DNA from: Porticoccaceae bacterium
GTDB taxonomy: Bacteria; Pseudomonadota; Gammaproteobacteria; Pseudomonadales; Porticoccaceae
Direction: 5' to 3'
Assembly (NCBI GenBank): GCA_902562425.1
Contig: CACETF010000003.1
Location: 1-64,000 of the forward strand
DNA: 64,000 nucleotides
Shown here piece after piece: positions 2,851-11,214 of the stretch (its first letter is position 1; each line of letters opens with the position of its first letter). Under the pieces are notes generated by a model. That model did no database searches and had not been told where the DNA came from. It worked only from the letters and a program-made list of their open reading frames with translations. The position numbers were made by a program, and so were the translations under genes.

Positions 2851-3105
2851 ATGACTTGTAATAATCTTGTCAGGTCGATAGTTTTGGTGATGGTCGTATC
2901 GGGTAGTGGGACTATATTAGCTCACGACGGGATTCATACATGGAACAATATGAGTGTTGGCGTCCATTTTCTCTTCGATTTTCTGCACTTGAGGGAGATA
3001 CTGATTGTTGGTTTAACTGCTATCTGGGCAGCGCTTATGCACTCGACTATACGACAACGTGCGTTTCAGTGCCTCAAATTAGACAAGTGCTTTTATGTTG
3101 ACTGA
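2851..3105 (+). CDS. Small exported or membrane protein of unknown function between urtE and ureD
   Basis: This 84-residue protein is not one I can assign to a family. It starts at ATG with a strong GGGAGG ribosome-binding site nine bases upstream. Residues 1-24 look like a signal peptide ending ..TILA, followed by HDGIHTW, a further His-containing amphipathic stretch (VHFLFDFLH, about residues 38-46), a hydrophobic helix near 48-63 and a basic, Cys-containing tail. Its last 11 bases overlap ureD, so it is translated with the urease genes. The AH-G start and following helix loosely recall the N-terminus of HupE/UreJ nickel permeases, but it is far too short to be one. A role in nickel or urea handling is only a guess from context. 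Confidence 0.7.
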   Translation: MTCNNLVRSIVLVMVVSGSGTILAHDGIHTWNNMSVGVHFLFDFLHLREILIVGLTAIWAALMHSTIRQRAFQCLKLDKCFYVD

Positions 3106-3970
3106 ATTAGAGCGCTGCTCTTCAGATGGCTCAAAAATATGGCCGGCATATTTAGGTCTCACCTTTGACATGCCAGGCAAGAAGACTCGTTTGATCAAGA
3201 GTGTGCACAAGGGCCCCCTTTACGTGCAGAAATTGTTTTATCCGGAGGGTTTAGAGCATGCACATGTCTACCTGTTGCATCCCCCGGGTGGAATTGTTTC
3301 TGGCGATCATCTTAGAGTAAGTGTTAATGTCGGAGAGAACGCGGGAGTCTTTTTAACTACACCCGGAGCCTCCAGGATATATAGGGCTCGTAAGGATGTA
3401 TCGGTTCAGCGAGTAGAATTTGACTTGAACATTGGAGCTAACGCCATGGTGGAGTGGTTCCCATCAGAAACGATTGTTTTTAGCGGTGCGTGTTCACAAA
3501 TTTCAACCAAAATAAATTTGTCAGAAGGGAGTTGTTTCGCAGGTTGGGATATATGCTCACTGGGCATGCCTGCCTCTTTTTCAGGTTTTGACTTCGGAAG
3601 TTTTGAACAAAAATATATTCTCCAGAAGGATGGCATGCCTGTTTATGTGGATCGACTCGAGTTGTGTGATCAGGAAAACTCACTTCTTTCAAAGCTTGCG
3701 GGGTTGCAAGGCTTCATGGTGTCGGGATTCCTCATACTCGGACCTTTTGTTGATGGTGCGGATTCTTTAGTATCAAGGATGCGTGAGATTGAATTTAGGG
3801 CTAAATCTCTCCATTTAATGTCTATATCGCGGGTTGGAAATTTTCTAATCGGACGCTACTTAGGAAACAGTGCGGAGCATGCTAAAAAAATATTTGTGAA
3901 CTGGTGGAAGTTAGCAAGGCCAATTCTAATGCTACGCGAATTTTGTGAACCACGAATTTGGCTAACCTAA
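3095..3970 (+). CDS. ureD: Urease accessory protein UreD (UreH)
   Basis: UreD, 291 residues, binds the urease apoenzyme first and recruits UreF and UreG for nickel insertion in the cytoplasm. Family features visible are the early [20 protein letters not shown] stretch, [10 protein letters not shown] (around residues 61-70) and [10 protein letters not shown]. The ATG lies inside the end of the upstream small gene (11-base overlap), so translation is probably coupled. ureA follows after 25 bases. Length and order (ureD before ureA) match the usual proteobacterial urease operon. Confidence 0.95.
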
Positions 3971-3995
3971 ATACCCCAGAAGGAGTGAGACTATA

Positions 3996-4298
3996 ATGGA
4001 ATTACTGCCCAGAGAAAAGGATAAATTAATCACTTTCACCGCGGCCCTTCTCGCTGAGAGAAGGCTCGGTCGCGGATTAAAACTTAACTATCCCGAGGCT
4101 GTTGCTTATATTTCTATGGCAATTGTTGAGGGAGCTAGGGATGGGAAGTCCGTTGCTCAGTTGATGAGTGATGGAAAGAATATTTTAAGAAGTGACCAGG
4201 TGATGGATGGTGTAGCGGAACTTGTTTCAGAAGTCCAAGTAGAGGCAACATTTCCAGATGGCACAAAGTTAGTCACGGTGCATGACCCTATAAATTAG
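3996..4298 (+). CDS. ureA: Urease gamma subunit UreA
   Basis: The 100-residue gamma subunit is one of the three structural subunits of urease. The sequence follows the family throughout: [11 protein letters not shown] at the start, a long helix with [17 protein letters not shown], then [13 protein letters not shown] and a C-terminal VTVHDPI. AAGGAG lies upstream of the ATG. Separate ureA and ureB genes, rather than a fused UreAB, are the normal arrangement in most bacteria outside Helicobacter. Confidence 0.98.
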
Positions 4299-4317
4299 AA
4301 CCGATGAGGTAATTGAT

Positions 4318-4641
4318 ATGATTCCTGGTGAAGTTTTTGTAAGCAGCGGCTCTATTCTGATAAATCAAAATAGGGACACAATTAAATTAGAGGTGGCTAA
4401 TGTAGGAGATCGACCGGTTCAGGTTGGCTCGCACTATCATTTTTATGAGGTGAACCCCGCACTAAAGTTTGATCGAATCAGAGCGCGCGGCTTTCGTTTG
4501 AATATCGCGTCGGGCACTGCGGTTCGGTTCGAACCAGGACAGATTAGGGAAATTGAACTTGTTTCTCTTGCTGGAACGCGAAATGTTTTCGGGTTCCGAG
4601 GAGAGATTATGGGTTCTCTAGAGGAGGTTGAAAATGACTAA
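4318..4641 (+). CDS. ureB: Urease beta subunit UreB
   Basis: The 107-residue beta subunit of urease forms the trimer scaffold with UreA and UreC. It opens with the typical [13 protein letters not shown] and carries [25 protein letters not shown] and [10 protein letters not shown], all conserved in UreB. The last eight bases overlap the start of ureC, and the GAGGAG ribosome-binding site of ureC lies inside its final codons. Confidence 0.98.
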
Positions 4642-6337
4642 TATTGATCGCAAGGCCTATGCTTCCATGTTTGGTCCCACAAAGGGTGATCGAGTTCGTT
4701 TGGGAGACACAGAGCTTATTATTGAGGTAGAGGATGACTTTACTTGCTACGGAGAGGAGGTAAAGTTCGGTGGGGGAAAAGTTATTCGAGACGGCATGGG
4801 GCAAGGCCAACACAGTTGCAGTGAGTCTGTCGATGTTGTAATAACAAATGCTCTGATTTTAGATCACTGGGGTATTGTTAAGGCGGATGTCGGCATAAAT
4901 CATGGTAGAATCGCTGCCATAGGAAAAGCGGGTAATCCAGATATCCAGGATAACGTGTCGGTCATTATTGGGCCTGGCACTGAAGTTATAGCAGGAGAGG
5001 GTTTGATTTTGACTCCTGGCGGCGTTGATGCACATATCCACTTTATTTGTCCGCAACAAATTGAGGAGGCTCTTATGACCGGTATTACTACCATGATTGG
5101 TGGTGGAACAGGGCCGGCCACAGGAACCAATGCTACAACGTGTACACCTGGACCTTGGAATATTGGCAAGATGTTACAAGCTACTGACGATATGCCAATG
5201 AATTTAGGATTTTTGGGAAAAGGTAACGCTAGCACACCCATTGCGCTGGAGGAGCAGCTCTTGGCTGGAGCATGTGGTCTAAAATTACATGAGGACTGGG
5301 GCACTACGCCGGCATCCATTGACAATTGTCTCAGTGTGGCGGAAACAAATGATGTACAGGTTGCTATACATACTGATACCCTAAATGAGTCGGGATTTGT
5401 CGATGACACCATCGCGGCTTTTAAGGGACGGGCAATTCACACCTATCATACAGAGGGTGCCGGCGGCGGACATGCTCCTGATATTATTCGAGCTTGTGCG
5501 GAGTTGAATGTTTTACCCTCATCCACTAATCCCACGCGTCCATACACTGTAAACACTATTGACGAGCATCTGGACATGTTGATGGTGTGTCATCATTTAG
5601 ACTCGTCCATTCCTGAGGACATAGCATTTGCGGACTCGCGAATCCGTAAAGAGACAATAGCGGCAGAGGATATTTTTCATGATCTTGGAGCTTTCAGTAT
5701 GATTGCTTCGGATTCTCAAGCAATGGGTCGAGTAGGAGAGGTGATTACACGCACTTGGCAAACGGCTCATAAAATGAAGGTCCAGCGGGGGCCTTTAGAT
5801 CAAGATAATGAAAAAATGGATAATTTTCGAGCCAAGCGTTACATTGCAAAATATGCTATCAATCCGGCCATAACTCATGGTATTGATGATGAGATCGGTT
5901 CTATCGAAGTCGGGAAGCTCGCAGATCTTGTACTATGGAAACCGGCTTTTTTTGGGACTAAGCCCACACTGATTATTAAAGGTGGGATAATTGCTGCGGC
6001 TCCTATGGGTGATCCAAATGCATCAATCCCAACACCGCAGCCAGTGCATTTCAGAAAGATGTTTGGGAGTTATGGGAAGGCTCCGTCGCAAACATGTGTT
6101 ACTTTCACTTCAAAAATGGCCGTTGAGGACGGTCTTGCAAAAAAGTTAGATCTTTCTCGCCGGCTCGTGGCATGCAGGAACACTCGATCAATTACCAAGC
6201 GAAACATGATTCATAACGCATGGATGCCTAAGGTCACCGTGGATCCTCAGACTTACGAAGTTCATGCGGATGGATTATTAATGACCTGCGAGCCGGCAAA
6301 AGTACTCCCGCTGGCACAACTTTACAACTTATTTTAG
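4634..6337 (+). CDS. ureC: Urease alpha subunit UreC (catalytic)
   Basis: The catalytic subunit hydrolyses urea to ammonia and carbamate at a di-nickel centre. Counting from the ATG at 4634 gives 567 residues, and every active-site residue falls on the standard Klebsiella numbering: His134 and His136 (HIH), carbamylated Lys217 with His219 (LKLHEDWG), His246, His272, flap Cys319-His320 (MVCHH) and Asp360. A TTG at 4628 could extend the frame by two codons, but GAGGAG at 4621-4626 is well placed for the ATG and the family starts MTNIDR-like. The enzyme should be active if nickel is loaded by UreDEFG. Confidence 0.99.
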
Positions 6338-6350
6338 TTCTCGAACCTCG

Positions 6351-6803
6351 ATGTTAGAAATATACCAACGACTGTCATCTGCAACGGGGCTCGATATTTA
6401 TGGGGAGGTAGAACTTTGTCATTTGCAGCGAGAAAAGGGTCGGTTTAAAACGGCCATTTTCACAGGAGAGGCAGTTGGATTTTTTTTGGAGCGAGGGAAC
6501 GTACTCAAGGTCGGTGATGCATTGATTAGTAGGTGCGGGAGGGTTCTTTTAGTAACCGCAAAAAAAGAGGATGTGGTTAGAGCTTCGACGGACGATTGGA
6601 GTCAGTTTAGCAAGGCTTGCTACCATCTTGGGAACAGGCATGTGAAAGTTCAAATAGGCGAAAAGTGGCTAAGGATATTGCCCGATCATGTTCTTGAGGA
6701 AATGCTCACAAGGTTGAACATGACTTTGAAACACGAAAAATCGGCTTTTGTTCCAGAACAAGGCGCGTACAAACACGTAAAAAATCATGAACGCATTATC
6801 TGA
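6351..6803 (+). CDS. ureE: Urease nickel metallochaperone UreE
   Basis: UreE delivers nickel to the UreDFG complex. At 150 residues it has the N-terminal substrate-recognition domain and the C-terminal metal-binding domain. The latter carries YHLGNRHVKVQI and LPDHVLEEML, whose His is the conserved dimer-interface nickel ligand. The C-terminus has only scattered His (KHVKNHE) and no polyhistidine tail as in Klebsiella, so this is the non-storage type. It ends 17 bases inside ureF, a coupled arrangement. Confidence 0.95.
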   Translation: MLEIYQRLSSATGLDIYGEVELCHLQREKGRFKTAIFTGEAVGFFLERGNVLKVGDALISRCGRVLLVTAKKEDVVRASTDDWSQFSKACYHLGNRHVKVQIGEKWLRILPDHVLEEMLTRLNMTLKHEKSAFVPEQGAYKHVKNHERII

Positions 6804-7461
6804 TCTGGGATTACTGCGAATACTCCAACTCAGCAGTTCCGCTTTGCCAGTCGGCGGATACTCCTTTTCACAAGGTCTTGAATTTGCGATAGAGAAACAT
6901 TGGTTGAGAGATTCTTCTGATGTCCGCGATTGGATCGCAACTGTATTAAAGCATGCCATAGCGAAGACTGATTTACCATTACTGATTCGTCTTGTTGAAG
7001 CGTTTAAAACTCATGATTTCAAGGGCGTGAGGTATTGGAATTTGCATGTGCTAGCTTGTCGTGAGACGCTGGAATTACGCGAAGCAGAAATAGCGACAGG
7101 AAAAGCGCTTGTTAAACTACTCAAAGGCATAAAGGTTTGTCAGGGTACTGTTCTAAAAGAATCTCTGACTTTTGTAGCAGCTTATGCATTCGCGGTTTCT
7201 TTTTGGAAGATTGATGTAAGAGTAGCTTGCCATGGGTTCGTGTGGTCTTGGATGGAAAATCAAGTAGCTGCAGCCACAAAATTACTTCCACTTGGACAAA
7301 GTGTAGCGCAACGTATATTGGATGATTTGATTGGTATGATTCCGGGTGCAGTGAGCGCCTCTCAGTCTGCAAGTGATGCAGAAATCGGGAGTTCTCTGCC
7401 TGGACTAGCGATGGCAAGTGCTTTACATGAAACGCAATACACTCGGTTATTTAGATCTTAA
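6787..7461 (+). CDS. ureF: Urease accessory protein UreF
   Basis: UreF, 224 residues, bridges UreD and UreG in the urease activation complex and helps control GTP-dependent nickel transfer. It is mostly helical and has the N-terminal family signature [20 protein letters not shown] followed by QGLE (about residues 9-32). The start overlaps the end of ureE by 17 bases, and ureG begins 11 bases after its stop. Length and order are normal. Confidence 0.95.
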
Positions 7462-7471
7462 AGGAGTCAAT

Positions 7472-8089
7472 ATGGAAGATAAACAAACTTTGCGAGTCGG
7501 TGTCGGAGGGCCGGTAGGGTCGGGAAAAACTGCGCTCCTAAGGGCACTTTGTATGAATTTGCGCTCTCAATATGAGATCGCAGTCGTGACAAATGATATC
7601 TACACTAAGGAGGACGCTGATTTTCTCACTAAGCATGAAGCACTTAGTGCAGACAGGATTTTAGGAGTAGAAACAGGGGGCTGTCCTCATACTGCAATCC
7701 GAGAAGATGCGTCTATGAACCTTGCGGCTGTTGAGTTACTGGGAGTTCGTCATAAAAGTTTGGATATAATTTTTATTGAAAGTGGTGGTGACAATTTGAG
7801 TGCTACTTTTTCTCCAGAATTATCTGATTTGACTTTATATGTAATTGACGTATCAGCCGGCGATAAAATACCAAGAAAGGGTGGTCCTGGAATTACAAAA
7901 TCAGATTTACTAATAATAAACAAAACTGATCTCGCGCCCTATGTAGGCGCATCCCTGGATGTTATGGATCGGGACGCGAAGCGAATGAGGAATGCAGAAC
8001 CATTTGTCTTTTCTAATTTAAAAAGCGGAGAAGGGCTTCCAGAAATTATAAATTTTATTATCAATGAGGGGATGTTGGTAAAAGAATGA
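7472..8089 (+). CDS. ureG: Urease accessory GTPase UreG
   Basis: This SIMIBI-class GTPase drives nickel delivery to urease. From the ATG at 7472 it is 205 residues, with the P-loop GGPVGSGKT at 12-20, the nickel-binding Cys-Pro-His at 71-73 and the base-recognition motif NKTDLA. The frame is open upstream to 7418, but AAGGAG at 7461-7466, five bases before this ATG, and the family length favour the start given. It closes the urease operon. The next gene is convergent after 44 bases, and no clear terminator hairpin is visible. Confidence 0.97.
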
Positions 8090-8133: not shown

Positions 8134-9618
8134 TTAGCCTGTTCTAGGTAACGTCAAGTGGAATGTTGTACCAGCCGCATTATTTGATGTAACAGTAATC
8201 TGACCATGGTGCTGATTAACTACGATAAACTTGGTGAATGAAAGACGGTTTTCGGGCAGATACTTATCTGTGGGAGGCGCATGATCTGTGTATGGCTCGA
8301 ATATTAACCGTTGCTCTTCCAAACTCATAGAAGATCCATTGTGATTGACTTGGATAATGATGCTTTCTTCGTCAGAAAAAACCCGAATATTAATTTGCGG
8401 TGTATGGTCATCTTCATCTATCTCCCCTAGCTGCTGACAGGAATGTCGAAACAAACTTAGGAAAACTTGTTGTAGCTCTGTTACGTGACATCGTATCTGA
8501 AGGGTGTTATCTTCATAGTCACAAGCGACATCGATATCTCGGAATCTTAACCCAGAGTTCACTGAGAGTAGACTCACGGCAAGGTCAAGACTGTGGTCGA
8601 TTATTGTATTCATTTGTTCAATCGACTTTTTATTCCCTTTTGTGTTAGAGAAAGAGAGTAAATTTTCTACAACATTTTTGGATTGCTGACCACGAATGAG
8701 TGCGTTTTCTATGAGTTCGTTGAGCCAAATCGTATCCAGCAATTCTTCGGATAAAGCTTGTCGGACTGAATGTAAATCCTTCAGAGTAGCGTTAAGAGGT
8801 AAATTAATATCCTGTGCCATCACGGCGGCCATTTCCCCCACAGATGACATTTTGTCTCTCTGAAGAATAAGATTGTTTGCATTTACTTGTTCAGTCACGT
8901 CATCAATAAGGATAACTGCGCCGGTTTCCTGTCGCTCTTGAAGCGGATAGATTGTGACATTATAGTACTTGTGATCTTTTCGATACGATTTAAACGAAAG
9001 GATTTTTTTTTCCGTACGCGCCTGAGTAACTTGGTCTTTTGATAGTGTGATTTGAGGATATCGTTCCCAAAGGTTCTGTCCCTTTATTTCACTTCTCTTG
9101 AATCCGCTTACTTTTTCAGCTTCAAGGTTCCATTGTGTGACTATATTTTTTTCATCCAGCCCCACCAGCATGAACGGCATGTAGTGTAAAATACTTCCAA
9201 TGTATGCCTCTGAACTTGCAAGTCGTTTAGTTGTAGTAAGATGTTCTTTAATTTCTTCCGCAAGTGCTAAATTGCTATTTTGTAGTAGCTGATTTGAATG
9301 GTTTAAGTTTGAAGTGCGTTCTTCGACTCGTTCTTCAAGTTGTCTGCGGATTGCTTCTAATTCTTTGTTATAGCGGTTGACTTGCCTTTGGCTTAAAAAT
9401 AATCGCAAAGCGGTCAGAGATAAAGCGATAATTAAAATGCTGCTCGAAAAATTTGCAACATACTGCCAGTTCGTGCTGCTATCCTCATTTCGAAAGGCCC
9501 AAAATATATCTGCCGATGCGATCTGGGATAACGTCAATCCCAGAATTATTATGGCCCCTCTGAAGACGCTAATAATTTCTATTTGTCTCTTTTTGAGAAC
9601 TGCATTGCACTTGTTCAT
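8134..9618 (-). CDS. Membrane PAS sensor histidine-kinase homologue, probably catalytically dead
   Basis: The protein has 494 residues: two membrane helices (about 20-38 and 57-75), a coiled coil (about 77-130), a PAS-like domain (about 137-245), then a DHp and HATPase-like region. The DHp motif reads GEMAAVMAQDINLPLN, with Gln269 where the phospho-accepting His belongs. The N-box (382-395, QQVFLSLFRHSC) lacks its Asn, the G1 box is NHNGSSM at 425-431 instead of D-x-G-x-G, and no G2 glycine motif is visible near 454-465, though EPY (441-443) and a GTTFHLTLP end survive. It lies downstream of selO on the same strand with no response regulator nearby. A pseudokinase or signal-binding scaffold role is inferred. 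Confidence 0.85.
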   Translation of the reverse strand: MNKCNAVLKKRQIEIISVFRGAIIILGLTLSQIASADIFWAFRNEDSSTNWQYVANFSSSILIIALSLTALRLFLSQRQVNRYNKELEAIRRQLEERVEERTSNLNHSNQLLQNSNLALAEEIKEHLTTTKRLASSEAYIGSILHYMPFMLVGLDEKNIVTQWNLEAEKVSGFKRSEIKGQNLWERYPQITLSKDQVTQARTEKKILSFKSYRKDHKYYNVTIYPLQERQETGAVILIDDVTEQVNANNLILQRDKMSSVGEMAAVMAQDINLPLNATLKDLHSVRQALSEELLDTIWLNELIENALIRGQQSKNVVENLLSFSNTKGNKKSIEQMNTIIDHSLDLAVSLLSVNSGLRFRDIDVACDYEDNTLQIRCHVTELQQVFLSLFRHSCQQLGEIDEDDHTPQINIRVFSDEESIIIQVNHNGSSMSLEEQRLIFEPYTDHAPPTDKYLPENRLSFTKFIVVNQHHGQITVTSNNAAGTTFHLTLPRTG

Positions 9619-9747: not shown

Positions 9748-11214
9748 CTATGATGAGCAACTTATGCTTATAGTCGACGCCCATTTGGGAGGTCTTAATG
9801 CATACTTCGACATTGCTGAGTTTTCATCATATGGATGTTGGAGCAAATGTAAGAGATCTGTTACCAAGCTAAAGTCTCCACACTCGGCAAGTGTTATCGC
9901 TTCTTGCGCCATGTGATTACGTAGAATGTATTTGGGGTTGACATTCAACATTTTTTTGCGACGCACTTCTTCGGACACTATTTCGTGTTGCAGCAACTTG
10001 TTATAATCTGCGGCCCATTTATTGAAATCGCCCAAACATGAAAACATATCTCTTATAAAAGAGTTCTCACCTGCTAGCCTGTAGTGACTTAAAGATCGAA
10101 AAAAAATACTATAATCAATTTTATTAATTGCGATAGGCTCCAATAAGCGCTCTATGATTTTTAACTTTTTAGAGGGAGTGTGCTCAAGACCAAATTTATC
10201 TGCCATTAGTCGGGTGTAAACTTTTTCGTACTCTGGCTGATATTCATTTAGAATTTCTTCTAATTCTATTTTCGGTATCAGTGTAGAAAAGGCAAGTGCA
10301 AGTGCATTGAGGTTCCAAAGACCGATTTTGGGCTGATTTTGAAATGAATAACGCCCTTGATGATCAGATTGATTACATATAAAACTCGGAGTATATTCGT
10401 CGAGAAATCCATACGGGCCATAATCAATAGTGTCCCCGAGTATACTCATGTTATCTGTGTTCATTACGCCATGACAAAAACCAATCGCTTGCCATTTGGC
10501 AATAGTTCGAGCAGTATTTAGAACGGCAAATCTAAATAGTTCTTTGTAGTTAGTTTCACAATTATTCCAGTCTGAAAAATGCCGTTGAATTACGTATTGT
10601 GCTAAATTTTTTACAGCTGATTTTTCGCCTCTGTGATGAAAATGTTCAAATGACCCGAAACGAATATGACTTCTCGCTATGCGGCAAATTACCGCGGCAT
10701 TTTCTGTACACTCCCTGTAAACTGGTGTTTTACTGTTGAAAATACAGAGTGCCCGAGTTGTCGGGATACCCAACGCGTGCATTGCTTCGGAGCATAGGTA
10801 CTCGCGTATGCTGGATCGTAAAACAGCACGGCCGTCTCCAAACCGTGAGTAAGGTGTTGTCCCTGCCCCTTTGAGTTGGACATCCCATAAATCACCGTCA
10901 ACCGAGAGCTCTCCTAGAGTTATAGCTCGCCCATCACCTAGTTGTCCTGCCCAAACTCCGAATTGATGGCCAGAATAAACAAGGGATATTGGTGTTATGT
11001 TAATGGGGATATTTGAACCAGATAAAAGATTAAATGTTTCACGATTTTTGAGGAAATCTGCTTCCAGCCCCAGATCTCTGGCTAGTAAATCATTTACATT
11101 TCCCAATTGAGGCTTTTGAAGTGGTGCCGGTGCAACAGAGCTGAAATACTCTTCATCGAATTCTTTGAAAGAGTTAAAGAAATGTTGCTCAAGTCTCTTT
11201 GATATGACACCCAT
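9748..11214 (-). CDS. selO: Protein adenylyltransferase SelO (YdiU)
   Basis: SelO has a pseudokinase fold with ATP bound in flipped orientation and transfers AMP to Ser/Thr/Tyr of target proteins, linked to oxidative-stress responses. The 488-residue protein shows YSGHQFGVWAGQLGDGRAI, KGAGTTPYSRFGDGRAVLRS and the metal-binding region HGVMNTDNMSILG..DYGPYGFLD. It ends in ISCSS; eukaryotic homologues carry selenocysteine at this third-from-last position, and here it is Cys. Length and motifs are complete. It is divergent from prfB and precedes the degenerate kinase gene by 129 bases. Confidence 0.96.
   Translation of the reverse strand: MGVISKRLEQHFFNSFKEFDEEYFSSVAPAPLQKPQLGNVNDLLARDLGLEADFLKNRETFNLLSGSNIPINITPISLVYSGHQFGVWAGQLGDGRAITLGELSVDGDLWDVQLKGAGTTPYSRFGDGRAVLRSSIREYLCSEAMHALGIPTTRALCIFNSKTPVYRECTENAAVICRIARSHIRFGSFEHFHHRGEKSAVKNLAQYVIQRHFSDWNNCETNYKELFRFAVLNTARTIAKWQAIGFCHGVMNTDNMSILGDTIDYGPYGFLDEYTPSFICNQSDHQGRYSFQNQPKIGLWNLNALALAFSTLIPKIELEEILNEYQPEYEKVYTRLMADKFGLEHTPSKKLKIIERLLEPIAINKIDYSIFFRSLSHYRLAGENSFIRDMFSCLGDFNKWAADYNKLLQHEIVSEEVRRKKMLNVNPKYILRNHMAQEAITLAECGDFSLVTDLLHLLQHPYDENSAMSKYALRPPKWASTISISCSS

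Follow-up and report, generated by a model that had tools for sequence, protein, structure and literature searches.

We found that the window, the stretch of 64,000 nucleotides of Porticoccaceae DNA analysed here, carries a gene for a membrane PAS protein which belongs to the sensor histidine kinase superfamily but in which the residues for phosphate chemistry have been replaced. The protein has both the HATPase_c (CA) domain and the DHp domain of this superfamily. It combines a kinase-like fold, loss of the catalytic residues and constraint on the gene, as a pseudokinase does. Histidine pseudokinases as a kind are known; what is of interest here is the family, its evolutionary series and two fixed replacements in the ATP site. 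Relatives with the same degenerate ATP boxes fall in one clade of 106 distinct proteins, and catalysis was probably lost once, after which the dead form was kept intact in related marine bacteria; this is the simplest reading of the sequences, not a proof. We favour the view that the protein, as a membrane PAS pseudokinase, acts on a partner by binding it directly, with an output that does not involve phosphotransfer. Pseudo-histidine-kinases are known from few studied cases, and no paper on this pseudokinase family was found in the open text of PubMed Central.

The open reading frame (8134-9618, minus strand) encodes 494 amino acids from an ATG start and has no internal stop, in line with the intact frame of the initial annotation. 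It lies 129 bases downstream of a SelO-like gene on the same strand (9748-11214), and 44 bases separate it from the end (8089) of a convergent ureG-like gene; both gene names were given by eye. The ureG-like gene closes a urease operon (3095-8089; ureD, A, B, C, E, F and G by eye), which adjoins the pseudokinase gene solely in L062-L066 among the named loci. In most other SAR92-type loci, a large permease, an ABC ATPase and an esterase are found at the place of the urease operon. Features of the gene are listed in Table 1.

Table 1. Features of the pseudokinase gene and its product, in window coordinates.
Feature	Position	Strand	Remarks
Membrane PAS pseudo-histidine-kinase, 494 aa	8134..9618	-	Intact ORF; HATPase_c and PAS above Pfam cut-offs; orthologues
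Residues 1-36, hydrophobic N-terminus with AxA-like end (QIASA-D), putative signal peptide	9511..9618	-	
Residues 37-56, presumed periplasmic segment of about 20 residues, conserved motif DGxTNWQYVAN	9451..9510	-	
Residues 57-78, transmembrane helix	9385..9450	-	Hydrophobic stretch; long model helix 51-145
Residues 79-135, coiled coil	9214..9384	-	Model helix
Residues 136-245, PAS domain	8884..9213	-	PAS_9 and PAS matches
Residues 246-326, DHp two-helix domain	8641..8883	-	Model helices 242-289 and 296-325; match to HK853, ThkA and DivL structures
Residues 330-494, CA (HATPase_c), ATP site predicted disabled	8137..8631	-	Pfam; CA fold
Gln269 replacing the phospho-accepting His	8812..8814	-	Minus-strand codon CAG
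Asp270	8809..8811	-	D in 106/106 dead-clade rows; 0 changes in 103 rows
His392 replacing the N-box Asn	8443..8445	-	Stretch SLFRHSC
His426 replacing the G1 Asp	8341..8343	-	Stretch VNHNGSS
Arg458 replacing a G2 Gly	8245..8247	-	Region ENRLSFTKF, without GxGLGL

The window protein matched the HATPase_c model of Pfam with 39.7 bits (cut-off, 26.4), and the PAS_9 and PAS models also exceeded their cut-offs. Its AlphaFold model (mean pLDDT 79.4, pTM 0.52, from a 27-row alignment) contains the DHp-CA fold of histidine kinases, and the coiled coil is a helix in it. The DHp-CA part matched histidine kinase structures with Z values of 17-18 (4kp4, 17.6; HK853, 17.4), and the CA domain alone matched 3a0x with Z 16.2 (rmsd 2.3 over 147 residues). 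The RetS structure 6dk7 was also among the matches of the model (Z 14.5). At the N-terminal end, small residues are present at both 34 and 36 in 96 of the 106 dead-clade rows. The periplasmic motif reads SSTNWQYVAN in the window protein. WQ at 51-52 was found in 104/106 dead-clade rows versus 2/40 canonical rows (L055 and L196), and the sole match to the TNWQY motif in the own genome was the pseudokinase gene itself.

A competent kinase has a phospho-accepting His, the N-box Asn, the G1 Asp and the G2 glycines, and the window protein has none of them. Its DHp motif is VMAQDINLP. The four replacements that had been read from the letters, namely Gln for the phospho-accepting His, the missing N-box Asn, the G1 box NHNGSS and the missing G2 glycines, were all confirmed (Table 1). 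Loss of motif residues alone does not prove inactivity. Pfam alone passes the window protein as an ordinary sensor kinase, which is a warning for annotation.

A match with an E-value of ≤ 1e-10 was found in 44 of 58 genomes (that of the window and those of 57 relatives), weak matches to other kinases included. Twelve of the 13 other genomes of the window's genus have an orthologue, and the exception, G006, is 78% complete. Named genomes gave 136 relatives in 196 candidate stretches, and the best 80 of the 136 were kept; these are mainly from Porticoccaceae and SAR92 and also from Porticoccus, Marinobacterium, Nitrincola, Teredinibacter, Dasania and Pseudomaricurvus. Order-wide, the family was matched in 77/244 genomes. 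The alignment contains 146 distinct proteins. The 40 rows with both Asn392 and Asp426 were called canonical, and the remaining 106 were called dead, their inactivity being predicted.

All 40 canonical rows have His269, Asn392 and Asp426, and position 458 is Gly in 39 of them and a gap in the other. At positions 269, 270, 272 and 273, 38 canonical rows have HE-N-N (the HEINN form) and L055 and L196 have HD-N-S. In the 106 dead rows, position 269 is H in 72, Q in 18, Y in 8, R in 3, N in 2, and G, S and F in one each; position 392 is H in 81, Y in 14, S in 7 and N in 4; position 426 is H in 103, F in 2 and a gap in one; and position 458 is R in 102, G in 2, P in one and a gap in one. The pair of N-box Asn and G1 Asp was found in 0/106 dead rows, and the GxGLGL stretch was found solely in L227. 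L227, a dead-clade row at a contig edge, has HNG in G1 yet GxGLGL in G2, and may have arisen by recombination, fusion or misassembly. One subclade has Tyr (L234, L239, L241, L249 and L264) or Phe (L242) at 269, a residue kind known from DivL.

Thus, Gln269 is lineage-specific, whereas the degenerate ATP boxes are clade-wide. Even in the 13 gene-bearing genomes of the window's genus, 10 have Gln269 and 3 have His269, and we rejected the idea that a conserved Gln is the key feature. Of the two traits whose conservation among orthologues was in question, the boxes stood and the Gln did not, as the residue is His in 72/106. The initial annotation had counted normal orthologues as evidence against its reading; a normal His does occur in many, but the N-box Asn together with the G1 Asp occurs in none.

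The tree was built by a quick search from columns other than 269, 270, 392, 426 and 458; its root was not inferred, and it has several long branches (L059, L261, L060, L237, L057 and others). A single branch (SH-aLRT 96) separates all 106 dead rows from the canonical ones, and canonical L055 and L196 adjoin the dead side. These two proteins have the DGSTNWQYLAN motif and the HD-form DHp, which are typical of the dead clade, yet their His269, Asn392, Asp426 and GxGLGL stretch are intact. Five of the columns 79-494 are fixed differently in the dead rows and in the other canonical rows, namely 255, 270, 320, 426 and 458. L055 already has the dead-clade residue at 255, 270 and 320, but not at 426 and 458, which are in the ATP site. 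His426 and Arg458 are therefore the only columns in this range that are newly fixed in the dead clade while L055 still has the old residue. The states of L055 and L196 place both ATP-site changes at the loss and the origin of the sensor motif before it. Because these proteins share the motif and have intact residues, the dead clade probably descends from an active kinase that had the same sensor.

The frames in the dead clade are intact, and dN/dS in six close pairs was 0.11-0.15 for the whole gene and 0.13-0.19 for CA; few changes underlie the single-domain values of the closest pair, and these values scatter (for example, coiled coil, 0.88 from 3 and 1 changes). Degenerate residues would be expected if the kinase gene had recently decayed in the window genome or its close kin, but such a decay is scarcely credible given that the 106 dead rows share one clade, that their frames are intact and that dN/dS is 0.11-0.15, and decay of a single genome was rejected on the same grounds. 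The proposal that the gene is retained under selection for a non-catalytic role gained support from the single-origin dead clade, from the low dN/dS in 6/6 pairs and from the fixation of the replacement residues His426 and Arg458 themselves.

Relative rates, that is, changes per column on the tree divided by the group mean, were compared between 103 dead and 38 canonical rows, after exclusion of three doubtful dead rows: L059 (long branch), L227 (mixed) and L043 (truncated). In ordinary kinases, response regulators dock on the half of DHp helix 1 that corresponds to residues 269-290. The relative rate of this half was 1.13 in the dead rows versus 0.42 in the canonical rows, a ratio of 2.68 (bootstrap, 1.64-5.18), which was reached by 0/5000 random column sets. 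When column 269 was removed and the dead rows were split by whether His was kept or lost, the rates were 1.16 and 1.15, respectively, versus 0.45 in the canonical rows. The top-residue frequency of the docking face was 0.52 in the dead rows versus 0.79 in the canonical rows, and a simple entropy count agrees with the rates. The dead/canonical ratios of other parts were 1.53 (helix 2, 299-326), 0.77 (PAS), 0.87 (upper half of helix 1), 1.04 (CA) and 0.83 (coiled coil; 0.88 versus 1.06). Several columns (for example, Trp184, Phe359, Arg391, Gln436 and His487) are locked in the dead clade but vary freely among the canonical rows; since L055 already has the dead-clade residues there, this constraint is not a consequence of the loss.

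The drift of the docking face bears on two explanations in which the DHp domain would still deal with a response regulator or a phosphoryl group. The protein could be a sensor of a phosphorylated response regulator like DivL of Caulobacter, in that the DHp face would dock the regulator and the dead kinase would read the binding out. In the parts of PMC4211667 cited here, DivL has PAS, DHp and CA domains and a non-His phospho-site, is active neither as a kinase nor as a phosphatase, and binds DivK~P via the DHp docking face. Its structure 4q20 matches our model (Z 15.3, rmsd 3.9 over 200 residues), and the Tyr or Phe at 269 in the six-row subclade also fits. The docking face conserved in such a sensor is, however, freed from constraint in the dead clade, and a receiver gene is near a family member in 2/111 loci (L059 and L132), many of which have short flanks, so that we regard this explanation as unlikely. 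The present family further differs from DivL in its variable phospho-site and in the two ATP-site columns fixed to new residues. The likeness is seen at the level of the histidine kinase superfamily, our tree being one of the present family.

The other explanation is that the protein is a phosphotransfer intermediate, in which another kinase would phosphorylate the retained DHp His and the group would be passed on. His is present in 72/106 dead rows and the adjacent Asp in 106/106. But the window protein itself has Gln, position 269 must have switched between His and other residues at least 15 times on the tree, also within the window's genus, and His-bearing and His-less members have equal rates; this role is very unlikely. 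Even less probable is a functional kinase with atypical residues. The retained CA fold and a CA rate no faster than that of the canonical relatives would suit such a kinase, but the N-box, the G1 Asp, the G2 Gly and, in the window protein, the His are replaced together, and the docking face drifts.

Overall, constraint on the CA domain has become neither weaker nor stronger, a result at odds with decay and with an entirely new surface alike. Within the domain, the ATP-lid (445-457), nearly invariant in the canonical rows, and the second G1 Gly (430) drift in the dead clade, whereas His426 (1 change) and Arg458 (2 changes) are among its least-changing columns. Because these two residues replace those of the metal and adenine sites and are fixed while neighbouring ATP-site positions drift, the former ATP pocket may, tentatively, have been rebuilt into a new site, and CA might bind another, perhaps anionic, ligand or a partner protein. 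His392 and the invariant Arg391 are near in sequence to the proposed site. If this idea, on balance unlikely, is true, a sensor kinase would have been turned into an allosteric switch with two inputs, one at the membrane and one from a cytoplasmic ligand.

A weakly retained nucleotide site would suggest another role, that of a nucleotide sensor in which CA binds ADP or ATP and thereby controls whether a transcription activator, for example NtrC, is bound, in the manner of NifL. The NifL-NifA structure 9qq6 was among the Foldseek matches (rank 23, E 1.1e-12), and an NtrC-like protein is encoded in the own genome; such fold matches are, however, common to histidine kinases at large. NifL is soluble, a difference from the present membrane protein. 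According to the cited parts of PMC12540587, NifL, an anti-activator of Azotobacter, has PAS, kinase-like H and GHKL domains and acts by protein contact with NifA in a complex that ADP stabilises. In the present family the ATP site is altered: Asp426, present in 40/40 canonical rows, is His in 103/106 dead rows, and the ATP-lid is free to vary. A NifL-like role therefore appears quite improbable.

We return to the favoured reading, in which the pseudokinase touches its partner and so acts on it. Sensing would fall to the PAS domain and to the short, conserved segment in the periplasm. The signal would then travel as it does in ordinary kinases, along the coiled coil and on through the upper half of the DHp helix. 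The protein would act as a dimer and would have no kinase activity in vitro. In place of autophosphorylation and phosphotransfer, it would change its conformation and thereby alter the partner bound directly to it. All counts are most simply accommodated by a sensor that has retained its input and helical transmission, has no further need of phosphate chemistry or regulator docking, and hence acts by contact. The retention of His269 in 72/106 dead rows counts against a role by contact only, which does not need His. The partner may most likely be another sensor kinase or a regulator, and in this form the earlier suggestion that the protein modulates another kinase is kept.

Contact-dependent action by kinase-like proteins has precedents in DivL, RocA and NifL, in the parts of the sources used here (PMC4211667, PMC7028121, PMC12540587; review, PMC12189002). 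RocA of group A Streptococcus is, as described in the cited part of PMC7028121, a membrane sensor-kinase homologue without several CA residues; it can do without the one His that it still has, and it works through another kinase, CovS, although the pair gave no signal in a two-hybrid assay. RocA differs from the present family in that it has six putative transmembrane segments and that overexpressed RocA without CA complements (PMC7028121), whereas the CA of the present family is as constrained as that of active relatives. RetS of Pseudomonas is a sensor kinase that acts on another kinase, GacS, by forming a heterodimer, but it is a hybrid kinase which, in the cited part of the review, also uses phosphate siphoning and dephosphorylation (PMC12189002). 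The nearest comparison is with canonical relatives of the same order (such as L221, L235 and L055). They have the same coiled coil, PAS, DHp and CA and form one alignable family with the dead proteins, and differ in H269, N392 and D426, present in all 40 canonical rows.

A partner was sought in the gene neighbourhood with a receiver HMM made from 8 seeds in a six-frame search of loci. The 111 loci (80 named stretches and 31 others) overlap and include canonical L055, L058, L060 and L061; 45 of the 80 named loci are at least 17 kb. Gene neighbourhood gave no partner in these loci: the gene stands alone and its neighbours differ between lineages. In L132, a helix-turn-helix and receiver protein (L132:1640-2239) follows the pseudokinase gene; we rejected it as a general partner, since matches were found in 50 of 58 relatives and almost all were ordinary receivers. 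The SelO-like gene (by eye) is the next gene upstream both in the window and in some of the SAR92-type loci, and unrelated neighbours are found in other genera; no functional link to SelO is claimed, as other genes are at that place in other SAR92-type loci. Metal-related neighbours (DUF411-like and Cu/Zn-efflux-like, by eye) change between lineages.

Receivers were found in 7/20 loci around mainly canonical copies (18 canonical-type, dead L339 and L196-type L342). In five of these 20 (L325, L326 and L329-L331), a receiver and GGDEF-like protein (by eye) is encoded 2-3 genes upstream of the canonical copy, and its gene adjoins ketopantoate-reductase-like and adenosyltransferase-like genes (by eye). 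Among 244 genomes, counted by eye and bit score, this protein was found in 0/28 with only the dead copy, 20/43 with only the canonical copy, 3/4 with both and 0/2 with the L055 type, and also in 44 genomes with neither copy above threshold. It was set aside as an ancestral partner, because kinship alone could give this pattern.

In the own genome, 7 receivers and 11 HATPases were matched; by eye, these include PhoR/PhoB-, NtrB/NtrC- and LytS/LytR-like pairs and GyrB-, ParE-, MutL- and HtpG-type ATPases and others. At an E-value of 1e-10 the sole match to the protein in this genome was the pseudokinase gene, so no close active paralogue was found there. L191 (contig C17) of the own genome encodes a 1225-residue multi-PAS hybrid kinase beside a CheY-like protein and a receiver-cyclase protein (by eye). 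An active relative of the same subfamily, assigned by bit score and sequences, was found in 4/32 genomes with a dead copy; therefore, a pair of dead and active close paralogues is not the general case. The dead gene is still present in the 1.3 Mb relative G016, in which receivers gave 4 matches and HATPases 7. Its remaining set (by eye; PhoR/PhoB-, NtrB/NtrC- and RegB/RegA-like pairs and a receiver-phosphatase-like protein) consists of systems too common to single out one partner.

In conclusion, one alignment holds a series that can be dated by the tree: an active sister with the same sensor, one probable loss at the ATP site, and then repeated loss of the phospho-accepting His and release of the regulator-docking face. 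Comparison of the L055 type with the window type makes it testable what a non-phosphorylating sensor kinase is kept for.
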